Assembly: GCA_030825745.1 (NCBI GenBank)
Contig: JAPJPH010000015.1
Location: 1-11,193 of the forward strand
Reading direction: 5' to 3'
DNA from: Anaerococcus sp.
GTDB taxonomy: Bacteria; Bacillota; Clostridia; Tissierellales; Peptoniphilaceae
DNA: 11,193 nt
Made by a program: the position numbers and the translations under genes. A model generated the notes under the pieces. That model did no database searches. It was given only the letters and a program-made list of their open reading frames with translations, and was not told where the DNA came from. This document shows, in pieces, positions 2,843 through 10,964 of this stretch; position 1 is the stretch's first letter; the number at the start of each line of letters is the position of its first letter.

Positions 2843-3487
2843 ATGTATGAATTTAAAAATGTAAGATATAAGAATATCTTAGACATAGATCATCTAAAAA
2901 TAAGAGATGGTAAAGTAACCTTTATATCTGGTCAATCAGGTAGTGGAAAATCAACTTTGTTGAAACTATTAAACAAGATGATATCAGCTGATGAGGGTGA
3001 GATTCTTTATAGGGGAGAGGATATAAAAAATATTGATTCTATAAAACTTAGGAGGGAAGTGGTAATGTTAAACCAAAGCCCTGCTATATATGAGGGTAAT
3101 ATTAGAGATAACCTATTAATAGGAAGAAAATTTGCTAAAACCCACGAAATTGATGATAGCTCCTTAGAAAAAGCATTAAAAGATGTTTACTTAGATAAAA
3201 GTTTAGATGACAGTCCAAATAACCTATCAGGCGGTGAGGCTCAAAGACTTGCTATAGCTAGGATAATGGTTATGGATTTTAAAACTCTAATCCTAGATGA
3301 ACCATCATCAGCCCTTGATAATAAAAATGAAACAGAAATTTTAGCAACAATAGTAAATTTTATAAAGGAAAGAAAGCTAAGCCTAATTATAGTTAGTCAT
3401 TCAAAAAGTCTCATAGAAAAATACGCCGAAGATATTGTATATGTAGATAATGGGAAGATTGTAAAGGAGCAAAGTTTTGAAAAATGA
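2843..3487 (+). CDS. fetA: ABC transporter ATPase, FetA-like
   Basis: This small 214-residue ATPase subunit has all catalytic motifs: Walker A GQSGSGKST (30-38), Q-loop Gln78 in LNQSP, signature LSGGE (128-132), Walker B LILDEP (149-154), D-loop SALD (156-159) and switch His186. It is close to the minimal nucleotide-binding domain length, as in the FetA/YbbL family. The partner permease follows with an 11-nt overlap and is a FetB/YbbM homologue, which makes the FetA assignment much firmer than the ATPase sequence alone. In E. coli FetAB is linked to iron export and oxidative-stress resistance; plant STAR1/STAR2 relatives confer aluminium tolerance. ATG 2843 follows AGGA at 2832-2835 at seven bases. 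The substrate here is an inference. Confidence 0.88.
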   Translation: MYEFKNVRYKNILDIDHLKIRDGKVTFISGQSGSGKSTLLKLLNKMISADEGEILYRGEDIKNIDSIKLRREVVMLNQSPAIYEGNIRDNLLIGRKFAKTHEIDDSSLEKALKDVYLDKSLDDSPNNLSGGEAQRLAIARIMVMDFKTLILDEPSSALDNKNETEILATIVNFIKERKLSLIIVSHSKSLIEKYAEDIVYVDNGKIVKEQSFEK

Positions 3488-4274
3488 TATTAGCCTTCAA
3501 CTAGGCAGGGTTTTAGCTGCCTATATATTTGTTGTAATATTACTAATAATAGTTAAAAAGAAAAACATTGGTAGGGAAAAACAAATAATAATTGCCAGTG
3601 TTAGGATGAGTATCCAATTAATCTTAGTTGGTTATATACTTATATATGTTTTTGATAATGTAAACTTATATTTTACCCTAGTCATATCCATCATAATGGT
3701 TGCTTTTGCCATACATACTGTAATTTCAAGATCTAAACGTCCCTTATCCAAAAGTCTAAAAAAGGTTGTCGCCATATCACTAGCAAGTGGTACACTAATT
3801 AGTTTATTTTACTTTCTAATCATAGTAATAAATGCCAATCCTTGGTATGATCCCAAAAATTTCATCCCTATAGCTGGTATGCTCATAGGAAATTCCATGA
3901 CTGGAATTAGCCTTGGGGTAAATAACCTCTTAGAGGGCATGTATACTAATAAATCTAAAATAGACCAGGCGTTAATGCTTGGAGCAAGCCCCAAAGTAGC
4001 TGTAAATGATATAGTAAATCACGCCTTTGACTCAGCAATCCTACCTACTATAAACTCTATGCTAGGTATGGGGATAGTATTTTTACCTGGAATGATGACA
4101 GGTCAAATCCTATCAGGTATCTCACCTTTAGTAGCAACCCAATACCAAATAGCCATTATGCTTGGGATACTAGGAAGTGTATCCCTAAGTGTTATTATGT
4201 TTGTAGAATTAGGATATAAGACATTTTTTAATGACCAAGATCAATTTATCTTAGAAGAGAATATAGAAAAATAA
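3477..4274 (+). CDS. fetB: FetB/UPF0014 family ABC permease
   Basis: This membrane subunit of 265 residues is predicted to pair with the ATPase before it. The start is TTG 3477, inside the end of fetA, supported by a strong AAAGGAG at 3463-3469 seven bases upstream, so the two are translationally coupled. About seven membrane segments are visible (near 10-27, 42-59, 64-83, 97-119, 128-148, 190-212 and 222-246). UPF0014 hallmarks are clear: PIAGMLIGNSM (131-141), an LGA segment at 168-170, and GMGIVFLPGMMTGQIL followed by SGISPLVATQYQI (197-225). The length is normal for the family. Established knowledge ties the family to iron/metal export and redox resistance. In this setting it could protect labile iron-sulfur proteins such as those encoded further downstream, but that link is only by neighbourhood. 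Confidence 0.9.
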   Translation: MKNDISLQLGRVLAAYIFVVILLIIVKKKNIGREKQIIIASVRMSIQLILVGYILIYVFDNVNLYFTLVISIIMVAFAIHTVISRSKRPLSKSLKKVVAISLASGTLISLFYFLIIVINANPWYDPKNFIPIAGMLIGNSMTGISLGVNNLLEGMYTNKSKIDQALMLGASPKVAVNDIVNHAFDSAILPTINSMLGMGIVFLPGMMTGQILSGISPLVATQYQIAIMLGILGSVSLSVIMFVELGYKTFFNDQDQFILEENIEK

Positions 4275-4386: not shown

Positions 4387-4423
4387 ATGAACGATGAAAT
4401 ATTTTAACCAATTAGGAGGGTAT

Positions 4424-5251
4424 ATGAAACTAAAAAAAGTATTTTTAACATCAGCCTTAGCTATGGCCTTTGTTATAACAGGTTGTACAAATGATACAGC
4501 AACAGAGGATAAGGCTACAAAAACTGAAACAGAAGTAAGCACAGAAAAAGCTAAGGATAGCCAAAATAAGGATAATCCAGAAGGTAGTGAAAGTAAAGAA
4601 GAAGAAAAATCTACTAAAGATGCATCAGATAAAGAAGCAAAGACAATGGCTGGCGAAGAACTAGATAAGATCCAAGAAGATAACAAACTTAAAGAAAAAT
4701 ATCTAGTTATAGATGTAAGAGATGCCGAAGAATATGAACAAGGCCATGTAAAACACGCTATAAATATCCCAGTTGATGAGCTAGAAAATAGATTAGCTGA
4801 AATTGAAAACTACAAGGATAGGGATATTGTAACAATCTGTAATACAGGTAAGAAAAGTGCCAAGGGCCAAGAAATCCTATTGAACAATGGATTTAACAGT
4901 GTGTTTAATGCAGATGGTGTAAAAGAATATGAATATACAACTATAACAAAAGTAAAATCTGTTTTAGCAGAAGAATTCAAAAAATTAGTAGAAGAAGGAA
5001 ATGCTACAGTTATAGACTTTAGAGAAGAAAAAGACTATAATCAAGGACACCTAAAAGATGCTATAAACTCTACACCAGATGATATCCTAGATAAGCTAGA
5101 TCAAATACCAAAAGATAAACCAGTACTAACATACTGCTACTCAGGTAACAAATCATTTGTAGGTGCAGATAAACTTGTAAATGAAGGATATGATGTAACA
5201 AATGCTATCGATGGAACAAAAGAATACGATGGCTATGAACTTGTAAAATAG
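4424..5251 (+). CDS. Lipoprotein with tandem rhodanese domains
   Basis: The predicted product is a 275-residue sulfurtransferase anchored to the outer face of the membrane. A signal peptide with lysines at 4-5, a hydrophobic core and lipobox VITGC gives lipidated Cys21. ATG 4424 is chosen over 4394 because AGGAGG (4414-4419) precedes it and it yields a canonical signal sequence. Residues 22-72 are a low-complexity Lys/Glu/Thr/Ser linker. Two rhodanese domains follow at about 75-172 and 180-275. Each keeps a VIDxRxxxxYxQGH core (VIDVRDAEEYEQGH, VIDFREEKDYNQGH) and a catalytic loop, CNTGKKS with Cys139 and CYSGNKS with Cys238. Both active cysteines are present, unlike classical thiosulfate sulfurtransferases, where only the second domain is catalytic. 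It may pass sulfane sulfur or a related chalcogen outside the cell. A terminator-like hairpin and then the six-gene cluster follow. Confidence 0.9.
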   Translation: MKLKKVFLTSALAMAFVITGCTNDTATEDKATKTETEVSTEKAKDSQNKDNPEGSESKEEEKSTKDASDKEAKTMAGEELDKIQEDNKLKEKYLVIDVRDAEEYEQGHVKHAINIPVDELENRLAEIENYKDRDIVTICNTGKKSAKGQEILLNNGFNSVFNADGVKEYEYTTITKVKSVLAEEFKKLVEEGNATVIDFREEKDYNQGHLKDAINSTPDDILDKLDQIPKDKPVLTYCYSGNKSFVGADKLVNEGYDVTNAIDGTKEYDGYELVK

Positions 5252-5261
5252 GAAAGAATTT

Positions 5262-5284
5262 AGAGGTCTTAGGACCTCTTTCTT
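5262..5284 (+). terminator. Rho-independent terminator or attenuator hairpin
   Basis: AGAGGTC (5262-5268), loop TTAG, and GACCTCT (5273-5279) form a perfect 7-bp GC-containing stem followed by TTTCTT. It starts 10 nt after the lipoprotein stop and ends only about 10 nt before ATG 5291. Because no promoter fits between the hairpin and that gene, the downstream cluster must depend on readthrough or on a promoter inside the lipoprotein gene. That makes partial termination or regulated attenuation plausible. Confidence 0.78.
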
Positions 5285-5290
5285 ATTATT

Positions 5291-6742
5291 ATGATAATTT
5301 TTTTTACAAAAGCACCTAGGCTAGGATTTGGAAAATCAAGGCTAAGAAGATATTTATCTGATGAAGATATACTAAAATTAAATAAAAAACTAATAAAAAC
5401 TACCTATAAGAGCATAAGATGCTATGAGCATAGGATCTATTATAGTGGAAATAAGAAAAATTTAGATTTTCTAGAGCTAAAAGATGGTATAAAACTTTTA
5501 AAACAAAAAGGCTCTAACCTAGGCGAGAGGATGAAAGAAGCTATGTTTGATAGCCTTAAATCTAATGAAAAGGTAATACTAATTGGATCAGACCTAGTTG
5601 GAATGAATAGCAATATTATAGAAAATGCATACCAGAGCTTAGATGAAGTTGATCTAGTGGTTGCTAAAAGCTATGATGGAGGATATGGACTTATTGGTAT
5701 GAAAAAACACCTTGATGTCTTTACCGACATTACATATCAGACAGATCATGTATTAGATGACTTAATAGCTTTAGCTAAAAATATGGGCATATCTTATAAA
5801 ATAGTTGGTCAAATACTAGATATAGACACCTTCGATGATTTAGTAAGGGCTGAAACTAAAAGCTATGATATAAAACTGATAGGTCAGGGAGAATATAATA
5901 TAAATTATCTGGTAGATGGTAAGGTTTTTAGGGTAAACCTAGGATCTCAAATGGACCTAAAAGATGAGCAAATAGCCTATGAATACCAAGCCCTAAAGGA
6001 GCTAGAAAAATCAGATGTAACCCCTAAGGTTTATAAATATAAAAAAAGAGGTGACTATCTACCTTACGGATTTTTATATGAAAAGTACCTTTTTGGCAGG
6101 GAACTAGACTATAATAAGGACCTAAAAATAGCTGGTAGACTTTTAAGCACCATCCATAATATAGAAGCTAAAAATTCCAAGCTAATCAAAGCTAATAAAC
6201 CCTTTTTAAATATGTATGAAGAATTTGAAAAGATGTTTGGAATCTACAAGACCTATGAAAAAAAAGACCCTCTTGTAGAAGATCTTGTAGATAAAATGAT
6301 GGAGATAGCAAGGTCTTTGGGACTAGATGAACAAATTAAAAGAGAATCTATAATAAATACTGAATTAAACAATAGAAATTTCATAATAGGTGAAAAATCT
6401 TATGTTATAGATTGGGAAAAGCCCCTCATAGGAGACTGTGAGCAGGACCTCGCTCACTTTTTAGTTCCTACCACAACAAATTGGAAAACAAGTAAAATAT
6501 TGGCAGATAGTGAAATAGAAGAATTTTTACTAGAATATGAAAAATATAGGCAAATTGATAGAAATCTTTTAAGAAAATATATGGTATTTAATACCTTAAG
6601 GGGCATTACTTGGTCCTTGATGGCAAGAGTAGAGTATGAAAAAGCTCCTTTTATAAAAAATGAAGAAACCTATAATAAGATTTTAAGCTTTACCATTATG
6701 GAATTTATAACAAGCATATATGAGAAATTTTTTAAAGGATAA
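5291..6742 (+). CDS. TIGR04282-like transferase fused to kinase-like domain
   Basis: This 483-residue cytoplasmic fusion has two parts. Residues 1-190 match the DUF2064/TIGR04282 transferase family (CofC-like nucleotidyl/glycosyl-transferase fold): FFTKAPRLGFGKSRL (4-18), GSNLGERM (74-81), IGSD (98-101) and DGGYGLIG (129-136). Residues 193-483 look like a choline-kinase/aminoglycoside-phosphotransferase fold: a Gly-rich start LIGQGEYN (196-203), a helix-C-like EYQALKELE (231-239), metal-binding VIDWE (372-376) and GDCEQDLAHFL (381-391). The catalytic loop, usually HxDxxxxN, reads NTELNNRN (356-363), so Glu358 stands where the base Asp is expected; activity is uncertain. Start ATG 5291 fits the family N-terminus but has no clear Shine-Dalgarno, and an 8-T run covers codons 3-5. 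A LicC/LicA-like nucleotidyltransferase-kinase pair is an alternative view. It is the first gene of the tight cluster. Confidence 0.82.
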   Translation: MIIFFTKAPRLGFGKSRLRRYLSDEDILKLNKKLIKTTYKSIRCYEHRIYYSGNKKNLDFLELKDGIKLLKQKGSNLGERMKEAMFDSLKSNEKVILIGSDLVGMNSNIIENAYQSLDEVDLVVAKSYDGGYGLIGMKKHLDVFTDITYQTDHVLDDLIALAKNMGISYKIVGQILDIDTFDDLVRAETKSYDIKLIGQGEYNINYLVDGKVFRVNLGSQMDLKDEQIAYEYQALKELEKSDVTPKVYKYKKRGDYLPYGFLYEKYLFGRELDYNKDLKIAGRLLSTIHNIEAKNSKLIKANKPFLNMYEEFEKMFGIYKTYEKKDPLVEDLVDKMMEIARSLGLDEQIKRESIINTELNNRNFIIGEKSYVIDWEKPLIGDCEQDLAHFLVPTTTNWKTSKILADSEIEEFLLEYEKYRQIDRNLLRKYMVFNTLRGITWSLMARVEYEKAPFIKNEETYNKILSFTIMEFITSIYEKFFKG

Positions 6743-6744
6743 AT

Positions 6745-7437
6745 ATGAACAAGCAAAATAGAAATAGACTAATATTATTAATAGTTGTAATAGCAATCTT
6801 TATAGCCTACTTTGCTATAAGTCCCTTTAATAGTTTTATAAATAAATCAATAAATGCCCTAATGACCTTAGATATCAATGGTGTTGTTGAATATATTAGA
6901 GGCTTTGGAGCAAATGCGGTTATAGTATCATTTTTATTGATGATTCTCCAATCAATTATATCACCGATACCAGCCTTTTTTATAACCCTAGCTAACGCTG
7001 CTATATGGGGCTGGTGGAAAGGAGCTATCCTATCATTTGTATCTTCTATGCTAGGGGCTGCTATTTGCTTTTATATAGCTAGAATCATAGGTAGAGATGC
7101 AGTAGTTAAACTAAATTCTAACACCGCCGTAAATAGTATAGAGAAATTTTTTGACAAGTATGGGGCAAATGCTATTGTTATAGCAAGACTATTACCCTTT
7201 ATGTCATTTGATTTAGTATCTTACTTTGCAGGCCTAACTCCTGTAGGATTTTGGAAATTTTTCCTAGCAACAGGTTTGGGTCAACTTCCAGCAACTATCA
7301 TATACTCCTATGCAGGTGGTACTTTGAGTAAGGGAGCTCAATATATGATGATAGGGCTTATCATAATATTTGTTGGAGCTGCCCTAGTTTCAATACTAAA
7401 GAAAATGTATGACTCAAAAAATAAAGATGAGAAATAG
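6745..7437 (+). CDS. TVP38/TMEM64 (VTT/DedA-related) membrane protein, copy 1
   Basis: This integral membrane protein of 230 residues belongs to the SNARE-associated/VTT family. Its start lies two bases after the preceding stop, with AAAGGA (6734-6739) five bases before the ATG. An N-terminal membrane helix lies at about 8-28. The VTT core spans about 55-195, with SPIPAFFITLANAAIWGWWKG (73-93) followed by a helix at 95-112, then ARLLPFMSFDLVSYFAG (147-163), the segment carrying the family's conserved Arg-x-x-Pro and Gly, and GLGQLPATIIYSYAGG (177-192). A last helix lies at 200-218. Members have been linked to lipid scrambling, proton-coupled transport and metal or oxyanion resistance; none of these can be assigned from sequence. 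It is next to a second family member and between two transferases. Confidence 0.9.
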   Translation: MNKQNRNRLILLIVVIAIFIAYFAISPFNSFINKSINALMTLDINGVVEYIRGFGANAVIVSFLLMILQSIISPIPAFFITLANAAIWGWWKGAILSFVSSMLGAAICFYIARIIGRDAVVKLNSNTAVNSIEKFFDKYGANAIVIARLLPFMSFDLVSYFAGLTPVGFWKFFLATGLGQLPATIIYSYAGGTLSKGAQYMMIGLIIIFVGAALVSILKKMYDSKNKDEK

Positions 7438-8107
7438 AGAAAAAATATTTAAAACCCTCCTAACCATAATGATAGCCCTAGGCTCTATCTACCTACTTAA
7501 GTATGCAAAATTAGAGTATATAAGAAAGCTAGTCCTATCCTATGGCAAGCTAGGAGACCTAGTATATGTCCTATGCTGGATTATCCTACCGGTATTCTTA
7601 TTTCCAGTGCCTATTTTAGCCATGGCAGGAGGGATTATTTTTGGTTTAGTTAAAGGATCTATATTAACCATGGTAGGAGCTTTGATAAATACTGCTATAA
7701 TGTATTTCATTTCTAGATATATAGCTAAGGACCTAGTAGAAAAACTAGTCCTAAGTAAAATTACAGGCAATCTTAGGAAAAAATTAATGACAGACAATCA
7801 AAAAAGTTTGGGCCTATTATTTTTCATCCTAAGGATAATGCCCATAGTAAGCTTTAACCTAGAAAACTATTTGGCAGGCCTTACCAATATAAAATTATCC
7901 ATACATTTAATAGAAACATTTTTTGGGATAATCCCAGGGACAATTATATTTTTAAATGTTGGAGATAAGATTTTTGATCCTAAATCACCTAGTTTTATAC
8001 TATCCGTAATATTTTTAATATTATTGATAGTAATACCTATATTTTTTACAAGAAAATACTTTGGAGATATCAGTGGCAAGGGTAACGATAATAATTCCAA
8101 CCTATAA
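7409..8107 (+). CDS. TVP38/TMEM64 (VTT/DedA-related) membrane protein, copy 2
   Basis: This is a second VTT membrane protein of up to 232 residues. Membrane helices are seen near 14-31, 51-70, 74-103, 133-155, 168-182 and 196-214. Family landmarks are FPVPILAMAGGIIFGLVKG (65-83), ILRIMPIVSFNLENYLAGLT (140-159) and GIIPGTIIFLNVGD (173-186). It keeps the Arg-x-x-Pro and Ala-Gly-Leu features of copy 1 but is clearly diverged elsewhere, so the pair is an old duplication or a heteromeric pair rather than a recent copy. The start is uncertain. ATG 7409 has a weak AAAG seven bases before it and overlaps copy 1 by 29 nt; ATG 7427 would overlap by 11 nt but has no spaced ribosome site. Confidence 0.88.
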   Translation: MTQKIKMRNREKIFKTLLTIMIALGSIYLLKYAKLEYIRKLVLSYGKLGDLVYVLCWIILPVFLFPVPILAMAGGIIFGLVKGSILTMVGALINTAIMYFISRYIAKDLVEKLVLSKITGNLRKKLMTDNQKSLGLLFFILRIMPIVSFNLENYLAGLTNIKLSIHLIETFFGIIPGTIIFLNVGDKIFDPKSPSFILSVIFLILLIVIPIFFTRKYFGDISGKGNDNNSNL

Positions 8108-8726
8108 TGAAGAAAAAAATATAGAAAAAATCCAAGACTCTCTAGCTAAGATAGAGGGTGACTTTGAAGTGATCTTTTCCGATGGTTTTAGCAAGGACAA
8201 TACCTTTAACCTAATTAGCTATCCTAAGATAAGAAGGATGAAGTATAGGTCTAGGCAGATGAATGAGGCTAGTAAAATAGCTCAGAGTGAGTATTTATTC
8301 TTTGTTCATGCAGATTCAATAATAGATCCTAAATCAATAAAGGCTATAGAAAAATGTGGGGCTGACATAGGAGCTTTCAAGCTTAAATTTGACAGTGACA
8401 AATTAATTATGAAGATAGTATCCTTTTTTTCAAACCTTAGAGTAAAAACTAGAAATATAGCCTTTGGTGACCAGGGGATATTTATAAAAAAGTCATTGTT
8501 CGATAAGATAGGTGGCTATGATGATATCCCTATAATGGAAGATTACAAGCTATCTATGGATATAAAAAAATTAGGTATTAAATTTAAAGTATTAAAGCTA
8601 CCTATTATAACATCTGCTAGGAAATTTCAAAGAGAAGGAAGCTTAAAAACCATTATAAAGATGCAAAAACTTCAAAAAAGTTTTAGGCAGGGTGATGATA
8701 TTTGGGATATATATAGGAGATATTAA
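8073..8726 (+). CDS. Family-2 glycosyltransferase, TIGR04283-like
   Basis: This cytoplasmic glycosyltransferase has a GT-A fold and 217 residues. It starts with GTG 8073, preceded by GGAG (8063-8066) at six bases, which places MARVTIIIPTYNEE at the N-terminus as expected; TTG 8061 is an alternative four codons longer. Motifs in order are PTYNEE (9-14), SDGFSKDNT (36-44) for nucleotide-sugar binding, FVHADS (77-82) in place of the DxD metal site, the family-typical FGDQGIF (131-137), and GGYDDIPIMEDY (147-158) with the catalytic-type ED pair, then TSARKFQREG (180-189). The HADS, GDQGIF and MED combination fits TIGR04283, 'transferase 2, rSAM/selenodomain-associated'. No membrane segment is seen. 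It overlaps the VTT gene by 35 nt, which suggests translational coupling, and ends one base before the iron-sulfur gene. Confidence 0.9.
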   Translation: MARVTIIIPTYNEEKNIEKIQDSLAKIEGDFEVIFSDGFSKDNTFNLISYPKIRRMKYRSRQMNEASKIAQSEYLFFVHADSIIDPKSIKAIEKCGADIGAFKLKFDSDKLIMKIVSFFSNLRVKTRNIAFGDQGIFIKKSLFDKIGGYDDIPIMEDYKLSMDIKKLGIKFKVLKLPIITSARKFQREGSLKTIIKMQKLQKSFRQGDDIWDIYRRY

Positions 8727-8727
8727 C

Positions 8728-9675
8728 TTGGTAAATGCAAAAGAAAATATAAGGAAAAATTGTATAAATTGTAATAAATGCAAAAATTCATGTGTATTTT
8801 TAGAAAAATATGATATGAACCTTAAAGACTTTACTTTTAGGGATTATCTAAGATATTCATGTTTTTTATGTGATAAATGTAAGAAGGTTTGTCCTAAAGA
8901 CCTATCAGGAAAATCTCTGGCCTTAGAAATGAGAAGAAAAAATCCTAGGGAAGCTAAAAAAACTATATTCATGAAAGATAAGTACAAATTAAGCAATAAC
9001 TCTAATAAAAAGTCTAACACCTTATTATTTTTAGGTTGTAACTATCCAGGATATTTTCCCAAAACCAGCCAAGCCCTAATAGATATTTGCAAAAGTCATG
9101 GCATAGACTATAGCATAGATTGTTGCAAAAAACCCATAAATGATATGGGGGCAGAGGCTAGCCATGAAAACTTACAAGAACTTTTCAAGCAAAAAAATAC
9201 CAAGAGGATTATAACCGCCTGCCCAAACTGCTACCATTTTTTGAAGGGGAAATTAGAAGGGATAGAGGTTGTTGATCCATATTATTTTTTAAAAGCAATA
9301 GGATATGGGGCAAAAATAAAGGAAAAGGCCCATATATTTATACCTTGCTCTGAAAGATTTGATAAGGATATATTAGAAAATATAAAATACTTTGCAGAAG
9401 ATATAGACTATACTGCTTATGAAGATATAATTTGCTGTGGCATGGGTGGGGGAGCATCAAAAAAAGAACCTGACCTAGTGGGAAAGATTCATAAGAATAT
9501 CAAAGATAAAAAATCAGATAATATCTATACCTACTGCGCAACCTGTGCAGGAAGTTTTAAAGCAAGTGGAATAGATAACATTAAAAATTTCTTATCAGAA
9601 ATATTAGAAGTACACGAATGTCCTGACCCTGCCTATACAAAAAATGTGCTAGCATACAAAATAAGGAGACACTAA
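8728..9675 (+). CDS. Ferredoxin plus double-CCG iron-sulfur protein
   Basis: This 315-residue cytoplasmic electron-transfer protein resembles the HdrD / GlpC / LutA-type (Fe-S)-binding family. TTG 8728 is chosen because AGGAGA (8715-8720) lies about eight bases upstream; a GTG at 8692 would add 12 unsupported residues and deepen the overlap. Two four-cysteine sets for [4Fe-4S] clusters lie at Cys12/15/18/22 and Cys45/48/51/55, the second ending in CP. Two cysteine-rich CCG repeats follow: Cys104, CC 132-133, CPNC 165-168, and Cys207, CC 236-237, CATC 270-273. In heterodisulfide reductases such repeats bind a noncubane [4Fe-4S] cluster that splits disulfides. No flavin or membrane anchor is present, so it needs a partner. 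A thiol/disulfide or chalcogen redox role in this cluster is inferred. Confidence 0.88.
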   Translation: MVNAKENIRKNCINCNKCKNSCVFLEKYDMNLKDFTFRDYLRYSCFLCDKCKKVCPKDLSGKSLALEMRRKNPREAKKTIFMKDKYKLSNNSNKKSNTLLFLGCNYPGYFPKTSQALIDICKSHGIDYSIDCCKKPINDMGAEASHENLQELFKQKNTKRIITACPNCYHFLKGKLEGIEVVDPYYFLKAIGYGAKIKEKAHIFIPCSERFDKDILENIKYFAEDIDYTAYEDIICCGMGGGASKKEPDLVGKIHKNIKDKKSDNIYTYCATCAGSFKASGIDNIKNFLSEILEVHECPDPAYTKNVLAYKIRRH

Positions 9676-10115
9676 TGGATGATAAAAAAAAGAAATTAAT
9701 TTACTCATATATGGATGAGGGACTAAACTGCTCACAAACAGTAATGAAATATTTCCTAGATGACTTAGATATAGATGAAGAAACTGCTATGAAAATATCT
9801 CAACCCTTTGAAATGGGCCACTACCAAGGTGGACTATGTGGATCACTCTCATCTGGCCTTATGGTATTAGGACTTAAATTTGGAGGTAGGGATGATGATA
9901 GCAAGGGAAAAGTAGTTGAACTTTCATATAAACTCCAAGAAAGATTTAAAAAAATTATGAAATGTAGTGATTGCAAGGACCTTTTAGGAATAAATGTAAA
10001 TGAGGGGTCTAACTTGGATAAGGCCTTTCAAGAAGGCAAGATTGAAACTATATGCCCAAAATCAATATTTGCAGTTATAGATATAATAGAAGATATTTTA
10101 TCAAAACAGAAATAA
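9675..10115 (+). CDS. C_GCAxxG_C_C family redox protein
   Basis: This soluble helical protein of 146 residues belongs to the C_GCAxxG_C_C family (TIGR01909/Pfam 'Putative redox-active'). The start overlaps the previous stop as TAATG, with GGAG (9665-9668) six bases upstream, so translation is coupled. The five cysteines fit the family pattern: Cys19 in GLNCSQ, Cys55 in GGLCGSLSSGLMVLG, Cys97 and Cys100 in CSDC, and Cys127 in ETICPKS. Serine replaces alanine in the GCAxxG-like segment (CGSLSSG). The biochemical role of the family is not established. The arrangement suggests a metal or iron-sulfur site or reversible disulfides. It is the last gene of the six-gene cluster, directly behind the CCG protein, which may be its electron partner. 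Confidence 0.9.
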   Translation: MDDKKKKLIYSYMDEGLNCSQTVMKYFLDDLDIDEETAMKISQPFEMGHYQGGLCGSLSSGLMVLGLKFGGRDDDSKGKVVELSYKLQERFKKIMKCSDCKDLLGINVNEGSNLDKAFQEGKIETICPKSIFAVIDIIEDILSKQK

Positions 10116-10529: not shown

Positions 10530-10964
10530 ATGAAAAAATATATAAAAAACAACCAAAAAAACATTATAATATACATATTTATGTGTTTCATTTCTGCAAG
10601 CTTTACTGCTGGTACTGCGTTTTTGTACCAAAGGATTACTAGTTCGGCTATAAACAATGACTTCAGAGCTTTAATTTTATTTTCAATATTTGCCATTTTC
10701 TACCTTATACTTGAAGCTAGTTTTGATTATATCCCCAAAAAATATAGATCTATAATCACCAATAGTGTATCCTTAGATTTAAAAAATGACTTCATAAAAA
10801 GTATAAATGAAACAGAATTGTCAAAAATGGACTATAATTTTACTAATACAATAAAAAACAAAATGGTAAATGATTTGAGCATAATAGAGCAATCTTATAT
10901 AAGTAATTTACTGTCTATAATATTATATTCTTTTATGTTTGTTATCTCCTTAATTTCTGCATAG
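10530..10964 (+). pseudogene. Truncated ABC exporter membrane domain
   Basis: This 144-residue open frame matches the first part of an ABC exporter transmembrane domain. TM1 is at about 11-33, TM2 at 48-68, a connecting helix segment SLDLKNDFIKSINETELSKM (81-100), and TM3 starts at 125-143. A full half-transporter is near 550-600 residues with its own ATPase. Here the frame ends inside TM3 at TAG (10962-10964), and none of the three forward frames downstream continues a membrane or ATPase domain before 11099. So the rest is deleted rather than frameshifted nearby. The ribosome site is poor, with GGAG at 10511-10514 about 15 bases from ATG. It may be a remnant of a peptide or bacteriocin exporter, given the Cys-rich remnant directly upstream. 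A short independent membrane protein is less likely. Confidence 0.68.

Follow-up and report, generated by a model that had tools for sequence, protein, structure and literature searches.

The six-gene cluster at positions 5291 to 10115 of the window (the whole 11,193-nucleotide stretch of Anaerococcus sp. DNA analyzed here) and the rhodanese gene directly upstream belong to a set kept across many related bacteria, usually alongside ArsS or an E. coli-like importer in the genome. Tentatively, and with slightly less than even confidence, we read the cluster as one conserved set that activates the ribose-type sugar of an unusual nucleoside, joins it to a membrane lipid, and flips the product to the surface. 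Family identities, linkage, co-occurrence, and exclusion patterns were computed; all reactions, the substrate, and the acceptor were inferred. In the open-access literature, we found no experimental function for the TIGR04282/TIGR04283 transferases or for ydjXYZ-ynjABCDE as a system. The pattern assigns every part a specific, assayable step, giving these gene families a checkable job, and predicts a new bacterial membrane lipid, of which ArsS genomes are predicted to make an arsenical form, with importer genomes predicted to scavenge the nucleoside.

In the proposed pathway, the nucleoside would either arise inside the cell, through ArsS in relatives, or enter through a YnjBCD-type ABC transporter; a nucleoside hydrolase or a phosphorylase would then strip off the base. 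The hydrolase route would need the kinase domain of the first gene to form the sugar-1-phosphate, whereas the phosphorylase route would not. The TIGR04282 domain would convert the sugar-1-phosphate to an NDP-sugar, the donor with which the TIGR04283 GT2 would glycosylate a membrane lipid; the acceptor would be a phospholipid if the product resembles arsenosugar phospholipids, and otherwise undecaprenyl phosphate. The glycolipid would then cross the membrane via the two VTT proteins or, in other members of the phylum, via one VTT protein and an MprF-type flippase, with the Fe-S, C_GCAxxG_C_C, and rhodanese proteins keeping the hetero-atom of the sugar reduced or thiolated. The features of the window were as follows.

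4394..5251, + strand: RHO, double-rhodanese lipoprotein (two stretches matching Pfam Rhodanese, 111.2 bits)
5262..5279, + strand: hairpin resembling a terminator, separating RHO from the fusion gene (7-pair stem, T-rich tail; consensus match only)
5291..5854, + strand: TIGR04282/DUF2064 domain at the N-terminal end of the fusion, with a CofC-like nucleotidyltransferase fold (TIGR04282, 144.1 bits; cut-off 134)
5855..6742, + strand: KIN, the C-terminal domain of the fusion, a predicted sugar kinase with an APH/choline-kinase fold (PF01636, 33.0 bits; cut-off 23.2)
6745..7437, + strand: VTT/DedA-type membrane protein 1 (VTT1), YdjZ-like, predicted lipid scramblase/flippase (VTT_dom, 95.7 bits; cut-off 33.9)
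7409..8107, + strand: VTT/DedA-type membrane protein 2 (VTT2) (VTT_dom, 70.1 bits; cut-off 33.9)
8073..8726, + strand: GT2 glycosyltransferase, TIGR04283 (209.8 bits; cut-off 182)
8728..9675, + strand: Fer4 and CCG iron-sulfur protein with 20 Cys (CCG, 40.8 bits; cut-off 20.6)
9675..10115, + strand: C_GCAxxG_C_C predicted redox protein (PF09719, 84.0 bits, cut-off 27; TIGR01909, 54.0 bits, cut-off 47.4)
10530..10964, + strand: truncated ABC exporter membrane piece of 144 aa, outside the system (ABC_membrane, 26.8 bits; gathering cut-off 28)

All six genes lie on the + strand with the spacings described by the sequence-only reading. With start codons picked by reading the sequence, the fusion gene (5291-6742) was followed after a gap of 2 nt by VTT1 at 6745, VTT2 began at 7409 with an overlap of 29 nt, and the GT2 gene, starting with GTG at 8073, overlapped the end of VTT2 (8107) by 35 nt. 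The CCG gene, starting with TTG at 8728, followed position 8726 after a gap of 1 nt and overlapped the C_GCAxxG_C_C gene at 9675 by 1 nt. RHO, which had gone unnoticed earlier, belongs to the set; its likelier start is the ATG at 4424, which is preceded by AGGAGG and followed by a putative lipobox ending in ITGC. The hairpin at 5262-5279 may put RHO on a transcript apart from the putative six-gene transcript.

The first gene encodes a 483-aa two-domain fusion, likewise not recognized before: residues 2-184 match TIGR04282 and residues 194-398 the APH kinase fold of PF01636. TIGR04282 is curated as a glycosyltransferase, and the predicted nucleotidyltransferase role rests on fold and fusion. 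By profile search, the domain matched CofC at 46.1 bits, and its Foldseek matches were 3cgx, 2i5e, and 7p97 (3-phosphoglycerate guanylyltransferase). The AlphaFold models from three-sequence input were weak (mean pLDDT, 64.2 and 60.6), and the 64.2 model was used solely for the nucleotidyltransferase half. KIN lacks the canonical Brenner motif HxD....N with its catalytic Asp; an invariant NTE[LV]N..NF...DWE motif takes the place of HxD, with Glu in 36/36 copies. This substitution makes the activity of KIN uncertain and counts against the ribose-lipid reading. The nearest solved relative of KIN by profile was 7s3l, a weak match of 30.5 bits that fits an identity as the Bacillus subtilis ribose/2-deoxyribose kinase CcrZ. 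The Glu of KIN aligns with the Asp counted as residue 166 of 7s3l (D166), and KIN differs from CcrZ also in being fused to a nucleotidyltransferase.

Alternatively, the fusion could be a kinase-cytidylyltransferase of the LicA/LicC kind, acting on choline, ethanolamine, or a related alcohol, with which the cluster would decorate a surface glycan or lipid. One chain does carry both a kinase and a nucleotidyltransferase; the low-confidence KIN model matched APH(2''), choline kinases, and LicA, as a fold check without substrate discrimination, and the best NCBIfam matches of KIN were GntI and thiamine kinase, all below cut-off. However, the HxD motif is missing throughout, CcrZ is active on ribose and inactive on choline, the set includes a GT2, and the cluster is linked to a nucleoside hydrolase, a YnjB-type importer, and ArsS, all of which make an alcohol-decorating role distinctly unlikely.

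The breadth of the set was determined by searches of 130 genomes of the Ezakiella family, in which genome counts are not phylogenetically independent. The first-gene family was present in 43/130 genomes. The GT2 gene adjoined the first gene within 10 kb in 42/43 loci, and the same distance around the TIGR04282 gene took in CCG and VTT genes (39/43 loci each), a rhodanese-profile match (36/43), and, as a less constant member, the C_GCAxxG_C_C gene (25/43). The set stays linked across the family, beyond what chance would give, although gene order is rearranged. The single-set idea of the sequence-only reading would have been refuted had the six genes seldom been neighbors in relatives, and these counts did not refute it.

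The radical SAM enzyme ArsS was found in 29/130 genomes, all within the 43 genomes of the first-gene family (hypergeometric, 1e-18), with an in-frame TGA in 15 of the 29 matches. Its genomes included the three closest relatives by cluster tree (G001, G048, and G002). In the nearest relatives, ArsS lies a short way downstream of the same genes. TIGR04169 directly follows the cluster genes in two Ezakiella loci (L001 and L002); behind it comes ArsS in the former and, in the latter, a piece of ArsS cut off by the contig end. The link to an arsenic/selenium-type radical SAM enzyme that the sequence-only reading had suggested is therefore real in relatives, and for the same reason ArsS absence was rejected as a feature, or a defining trait, of the system. 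The "arsenosugar biosynthesis" clusters of the ArsS/rSAM-selenodomain type comprise TIGR04167, TIGR04169, TIGR04282, and TIGR04283. The window shares the last two, over cut-off as listed above, but has neither ArsS nor TIGR04169 in its 11 kb and has TIGR04282 fused to a kinase.

ArsS has been reported to adenosylate arsenic, and an ArsM-like match lay within 80 nt of ArsS in three genomes (G022, G023, and G034). However, 13 cluster genomes (excluding G029, a 3.6-kb contig also left out of the YnjB, nucleosidase, and phosphorylase counts) run the core without any ArsS match, so that arsenic is unlikely to be the sole substrate, and 8 of these 13 also gave no ArsM-like match. SelD was too widespread to serve as a discriminating partner (86/130 genomes, 41/43 of the first-gene family, 27/29 with ArsS). 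These patterns bear on a redox reading along the lines of the earlier proposal, in which a sulfur, selenium, or arsenic species would be reduced or detoxified and the transferases would form a soluble conjugate. The frequency of the rhodanese, CCG, and C_GCAxxG_C_C genes and the occurrence of ArsS and ArsM in relatives are in its favor; the 13 genomes lacking an ArsS match, 8 of them an ArsM-like match too, the lesser constancy of C_GCAxxG_C_C, and two flippase-type membrane proteins suggestive of a lipid product leave it quite unlikely. Its conjugation half would proceed by predicted kinase, nucleotidyltransferase, and glycosyltransferase steps, with the redox proteins as accessories. In the CCG protein, Fer4 matches were below cut-off, and the NF045663 dicluster match (79.1 bits) was far below its cut-off of 530.

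A YnjB-family binding protein exceeded the cut-off in 13/130 genomes, all of them kinase genomes. It was present in 11/13 cluster genomes without ArsS versus 2/29 with ArsS (Fisher, 1.3e-6). Against the ribose-lipid reading, two genomes (G038 and G039) lack both ArsS and the importer, and in three others (G049, G106, and G108) the importer lies elsewhere in the genome. We know of no YnjB substrate.

A nucleoside-hydrolase-type gene occurred in 13 family loci, 12 of them in kinase genomes and one in the G029 fragment, a linkage that connects the kinase with nucleoside chemistry. Two of the 13 hydrolases were tested against PF01156, and both were over the cut-off of 34.2 (89.0 and 69.8 bits). 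The N-terminal D.D...D.DD motif was present as the strict pattern ending in A in 8/17 proteins; seven more keep every motif Asp, and those of L058 and L063 each lack one. Several observations count against the reading: the hydrolase falls far short of the RihC equivalog cut-off (58.4 vs 382), it is in the mapped locus of only 5/14 genomes with ArsS and kinase (G002, G018, G022, G023, and G034), and in G001 and G048 (Ezakiella and close kin, with kinase and ArsS) neither a cluster hydrolase nor a match to TIGR01704 or TIGR01697 was found. A TIGR01697-type phosphorylase matched in 15/15 kinase-less cluster genomes (11 over cut-off, 4 below) versus 9/27 kinase genomes (8 over cut-off). MTA/SAH nucleosidase (TIGR01704) was rejected as a partner, being present in 12/42 genomes with no clean split.

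The alternation of hydrolase plus kinase with a phosphorylase is described for 5'-deoxyadenosine in PMC6079011, where the drdK/MTR-kinase route of 5-deoxyribose salvage likewise makes a pentose-1-phosphate. That route is catabolic, whereas the cluster sugar would be activated and transferred. The kinase and hydrolase might nevertheless perform such salvage, of 5-deoxyribose or 5-methylthioribose released by radical SAM enzymes, as the shared first steps would allow. No isomerase or aldolase of the drd pathway was recognized by eye, from leading residues, among the recurrent neighbor families, and in 18/27 kinase genomes of the family the kinase shares a chain with a nucleotidyltransferase, making salvage highly improbable.

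The VTT1 profile matched E. coli YdjZ at 224.5 bits and the VTT2 profile matched YdjZ at 215.5 and YdjX at 134.4 bits; profiles from the window and relatives together gave YdjZ at 224.5 and YdjX at 138.5 bits, a YdjX/YdjZ-like pair. The sugar could instead pass to undecaprenyl phosphate and into a wall polymer, with the VTT pair returning the carrier and no special phospholipid being made. UptA was the best NCBIfam match of both VTT proteins, which share the VTT domain with the DedA/UptA undecaprenyl-phosphate flippases, and DedA proteins are C55-P flippases (PMC12893004), which also speaks for the lipid end of our reading. The scores (39.6 and 22.1 bits) are, however, well under the UptA equivalog cut-off of 250 (NF052604), and the window proteins occur paired and cluster-bound. 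No polymerase, ligase, or Wzx-type gene was recognized by eye, from leading residues, among the recurrent neighbor families, and MprF-type flippases occupy the same clusters elsewhere in the phylum; we regard the wall-polymer route as unlikely. When solved structures were searched by sequence, the GT2, hydrolase, and YnjB gave only general matches or none.

Outside the family, the same core adjoins ArsS, radical SAM enzymes of two other types, or the kinase and importer, and the kinase has the importer as its neighbor in 6/8 loci (one truncated by a contig end) and a nucleoside hydrolase in 4/8. In favor of the lipid end of our reading, an MprF-type (PF03706) flippase was found in 11/29 loci outside the family, all of which carry a single strong VTT, and can occupy the place of the second VTT protein. 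MprF-type flippases are linked to aminoacyl-phosphatidylglycerol.

The "loose parallel" drawn earlier with E. coli ydjXYZ-ynjABCDE proved to be a shared homologous module of six of its eight genes, as profiles derived from these loci matched YdjZ, YdjX, YnjB, YnjC, YnjD, and YdjY. The cluster shares two VTT proteins and a rhodanese with the E. coli operon, and relatives' loci share homologues of YnjB (over the PRK11622 cut-off), YnjC, YnjD, and YdjY. YnjA and YnjE were not matched by the TIGR04169 and rhodanese profiles of these loci, although YnjA and TIGR04169 are both AhpD/CMD-type; the annotation of YnjE as a molybdopterin synthase sulfurtransferase hints at a different role for the rhodanese and counts against our reading. 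The operon has no annotated TIGR04282, TIGR04283, kinase, or CCG gene, whereas the window has no YnjBCD-type importer, there being no such binding protein among its ORFs. More speculatively, it is possible that TIGR04282, TIGR04283, and VTT proteins form a general chassis for nucleoside-derived glycolipids, whose exchangeable front end is ArsS, a BioB-like/Rv1681-like radical SAM enzyme, or YnjBCD with a nucleoside hydrolase and a Glu-type sugar-1-kinase, the E. coli operon being the uptake-and-flip half. The ArsS front end would serve arsenic, and the BioB-like/Rv1681-like enzymes other hetero-atoms or carbon chains.

When relatives' proteins were used as tblastn queries, ArsS, TIGR04169, and the nucleoside hydrolase gave no match below E = 1 in the window. 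A relic of these genes was thus rejected, and the earlier statement that no radical SAM gene is present holds for these 11 kb. The truncated ABC gene fills the place where three Ezakiella loci (L001, L041, and L002) have TIGR04169 and ArsS close by.

The six-gene cluster of the sequence-only reading was confirmed on the forward strand, and profile scans assigned its products. The relevant features are as follows.

5291–10115, forward strand: six-gene cluster with intergenic spacings of 2, −29, −35, 1, and −1 nt
First gene of the cluster, forward strand: TIGR04282 domain joined to an APH-fold kinase domain (fusion protein)
Within the cluster, forward strand: two VTT membrane proteins
Within the cluster, forward strand: TIGR04283 glycosyltransferase (GT2)
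Within the cluster, forward strand: Fer4 and CCG iron-sulfur protein with 20 cysteines by count
Within the cluster, forward strand: C_GCAxxG_C_C protein
39 nt upstream of the cluster: lipoprotein with two rhodanese domains
Between the lipoprotein and fusion genes: terminator-like hairpin
10530–10964, after a 0.4-kb spacer downstream of the cluster: truncated membrane piece of an ABC exporter, 144 aa, seemingly a gene in decay

Scanning genomes with the fusion protein retrieved two loci, one in Ezakiella peruensis, with 58% identity, and one in an Ezakiella MAG, with 55%; both share the seven genes of the window and their order. Downstream, one locus (L001) carries TIGR04169 (157.4 bits; cut-off 120), then the radical SAM enzyme ArsS, TIGR04167 (411.2 bits; cut-off 300). 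In the other (L002), a nucleoside hydrolase and TIGR04169 (150.0 bits) follow, and the contig breaks off within ArsS, leaving a fragment of it. The rest of ArsS in the latter genome lies at the end of another contig, and the two pieces were taken to be one gene. The ABC exporter piece of the window occupies the place where the Ezakiella loci have TIGR04169 and ArsS nearby. In a tree built from a concatenation of four proteins of the cluster, the window fell within the clade of genomes G001, G048, and G002 (support 1.0 and 0.995). Because all three members carry ArsS, the gene probably adjoined the cluster in the ancestor of the window and has since moved or been lost.

We surveyed 130 genomes of the GTDB family of G001, of which 43 matched the fusion protein or its parts. 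Regions were read from 41 genomes, including L001 and L002; the two remaining genomes, G069 and G084, and a further contig of G063 were read later. Genes lying no more than 10 kb from the TIGR04282 gene were called with local profiles (score >40) at one locus per genome. GT2 occurred in 42 of the 43 loci, CCG and VTT in 39 each (VTT as a pair in 37), rhodanese in 36, the kinase and C_GCAxxG_C_C in 25 each, ArsS in 14, and TIGR04169 in 10. This co-occurrence upheld the earlier proposal of a single conserved gene set, and the set with its partners is well supported. The exact order rhodanese–fusion–VTT–VTT–GT2–CCG was found in 11 of 44 loci, the window counted, and many others were rearranged; thus, proximity was conserved and order was not. 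In G089 and G062, one reading frame matched both the GT2 and TIGR04282 profiles, which suggests another fusion of putative pathway enzymes. In three loci (L046, L055, and L056), ArsS sits between CCG and C_GCAxxG_C_C; the L055 and L056 stretches gave no match to VTT.

ArsS was found in 29 of the 130 genomes, always above the 300-bit cut-off and always inside the 43 (hypergeometric 1e-18). Fifteen of the 29 matches contained one in-frame TGA. In the two loci readable by pattern, TGA stood at the cysteine position of CYGCTAGxGSS[C]GG, and the same pattern found nothing in three further TGA-bearing ArsS loci; the position in those two is the one expected for selenocysteine. ArsM-like matches (NF008823, E ≤ 1e-30; 6 over the cut-off) occurred in 36 of the 130 genomes, including 31 of the 43; they were no more than 80 nt away from ArsS in G022, G023, and G034 and were absent in eight ArsS-less cluster genomes. 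An in-frame TGA was also present in 27 of 41 ArsM-like matches (L108–L117 and others), four of them with a second stop, and likely encodes selenocysteine. In arsenosugar phospholipids, a dimethylarsinoyl riboside is carried by a phosphatidylglycerol-type lipid. A review citing Cheng 2021 states that ArsS adenosylates arsenic (PMC12159101).

The kinase, when G029 (a 3.6-kb contig fragment) was excluded from these counts, was present in 27 cluster genomes (18 fused, 9 separate) and absent from 15; ArsS was present in 15/15 kinase-less genomes versus 14/27 with the kinase. A nucleoside-hydrolase-type gene occurred in 13 loci, twelve from kinase genomes plus the G029 fragment, and both proteins scanned from these loci matched PF01156. 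A recurrent ABC importer consisted of a binding protein (455.8 bits on PRK11622/YnjB; cut-off 203), two permeases, and an ATPase. Genome-wide, 13 of the 130 genomes, each of them with the kinase, scored above the cut-off of the YnjB model, and weaker matches occurred in G026 and G031, both without the cluster. YnjB was found in 11/13 ArsS-less versus 2/29 ArsS-bearing cluster genomes (Fisher 1.3e-6 over 42 genomes, with kinship ignored), and the opposition held within the 27 kinase genomes (Fisher 4.2e-4, likewise ignoring kinship). The importer was inside the mapped locus in 10 of the 13 genomes, nine of these with the hydrolase, and away from the cluster in G049, G106, and G108. Only G038 and G039, a closely related pair, had neither ArsS nor importer.

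If a phosphorylase removed the base of a nucleoside, the sugar 1-phosphate would form directly and a kinase would be unnecessary, whereas hydrolysis would yield free sugar and require one. These alternatives, which are described for 5'-deoxyadenosine (PMC6079011), predict phosphorylases in kinase-less genomes. The TIGR01697 phosphorylase was found in 15/15 kinase-less versus 9/27 kinase genomes (Fisher 1.4e-5), or, over the cut-off, in 11/15 versus 8/27 (Fisher 0.0099), a split that clade structure could also have produced. The phosphorylase logic is weakened by G001 and G048, which have the kinase but in which no cluster hydrolase, TIGR01704 nucleosidase, or TIGR01697 phosphorylase was detected.

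Among 348 genomes across the phylum, TIGR04283 was found in 26 (21 over the cut-off), ArsS in nine, all with TIGR04283, and the kinase in nine, including G212, G253, and G352 outside the 26; only G001 had both ArsS and kinase. Loci were read for 24 of the 26 (G243 and G414 left out; G001 read through L001). The front end was ArsS in nine (with the kinase too in G001; on a different contig from GT2 in G154), the kinase without ArsS in five (on another contig in G215), a BioB-like radical SAM protein in four, and an Rv1681-like one in four; none was seen in two of the loci read. These unnamed BioB-like (L202–L204, L209) and Rv1681-like (L201, L205–L207) proteins, defined by local profiles, adjoin the TIGR04282/TIGR04283/VTT core in place of ArsS, and four members fell below all NCBIfam cut-offs. 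Three PF03706 proteins served to build a flippase profile, which matched 11 of 29 mapped loci (one at 57 bits), each with exactly one VTT protein above 100 bits. Among the 18 loci without it, five had two or three VTT proteins, three had one, and ten had none in the stretch examined, several of these being contig ends or partial loci. The flippase thus seems to replace the second VTT protein, which supports a predicted lipid-moving role; DedA proteins are C55-P flippases (PMC12893004).

The best solved-structure match of kinase profile A1 (12 sequences) was 7s3l (30.5 bits), whose aligned HCD motif places Asp at residue 166, counted from the alignment. We take 7s3l to be CcrZ, with which the residue-166 numbering agrees. 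In B. subtilis CcrZ, Asp166 is catalytic, and the enzyme takes ribose and 2-deoxyribose as substrates but is inactive on choline (PMC9135335). All 36 kinase copies examined had NTE[LV]N..NF...DWE and none had HxD; this Asp-to-Glu change is the largest doubt on the predicted kinase activity. The first structural model, confident in its N-terminal part, matched 3cgx, 2i5e, 7p97 (3-phosphoglycerate guanylyltransferase), and Rv2983 in Foldseek, with GT-A type glucosyl-3-phosphoglycerate synthases lower. The nucleotidyltransferase-fold matches, together with the kinase fusion, favour nucleotidyl rather than glycosyl transfer by the TIGR04282 half, contrary to its curated family name. Sugar activation, transfer to lipid, and flipping are a tentative prediction, to which we give slightly less than even weight.

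The likeness to E. coli ydjXYZ-ynjABCDE, earlier described as a loose parallel, proved closer: profiles built from the loci matched YdjZ (224.5 bits), YdjX (138.5), YnjB (272.1), YnjC (124.1), YnjD (171.0), and YdjY (214.1) of K-12, so the parallel is homology for most of the operon. YnjA and YnjE were unmatched by the TIGR04169 and rhodanese profiles, YnjE being annotated as a molybdopterin synthase sulfurtransferase, and TIGR04283 had no match in the E. coli control genome. Among the papers listed from open-access literature and few subscription journals, none dealt, by its title or abstract opening, with the kinase fusion, the cluster hydrolase or importer, or the function of ydjXYZ-ynjABCDE as a system.

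Elsewhere in the window, an ABC pair at 2843–4274 comprises an ATPase and a UPF0014 permease (279.7 bits, Pfam); it is FetAB-like but below the FetB cut-off (158.6 versus 410). A perfect sigma-70-type promoter (TTGACA-17-TATAAT, 12/12) at 149–177 precedes a 402-aa membrane protein (225–1433) and an amidohydrolase (1452–2642) that groups with M20-like proteins from other loci.
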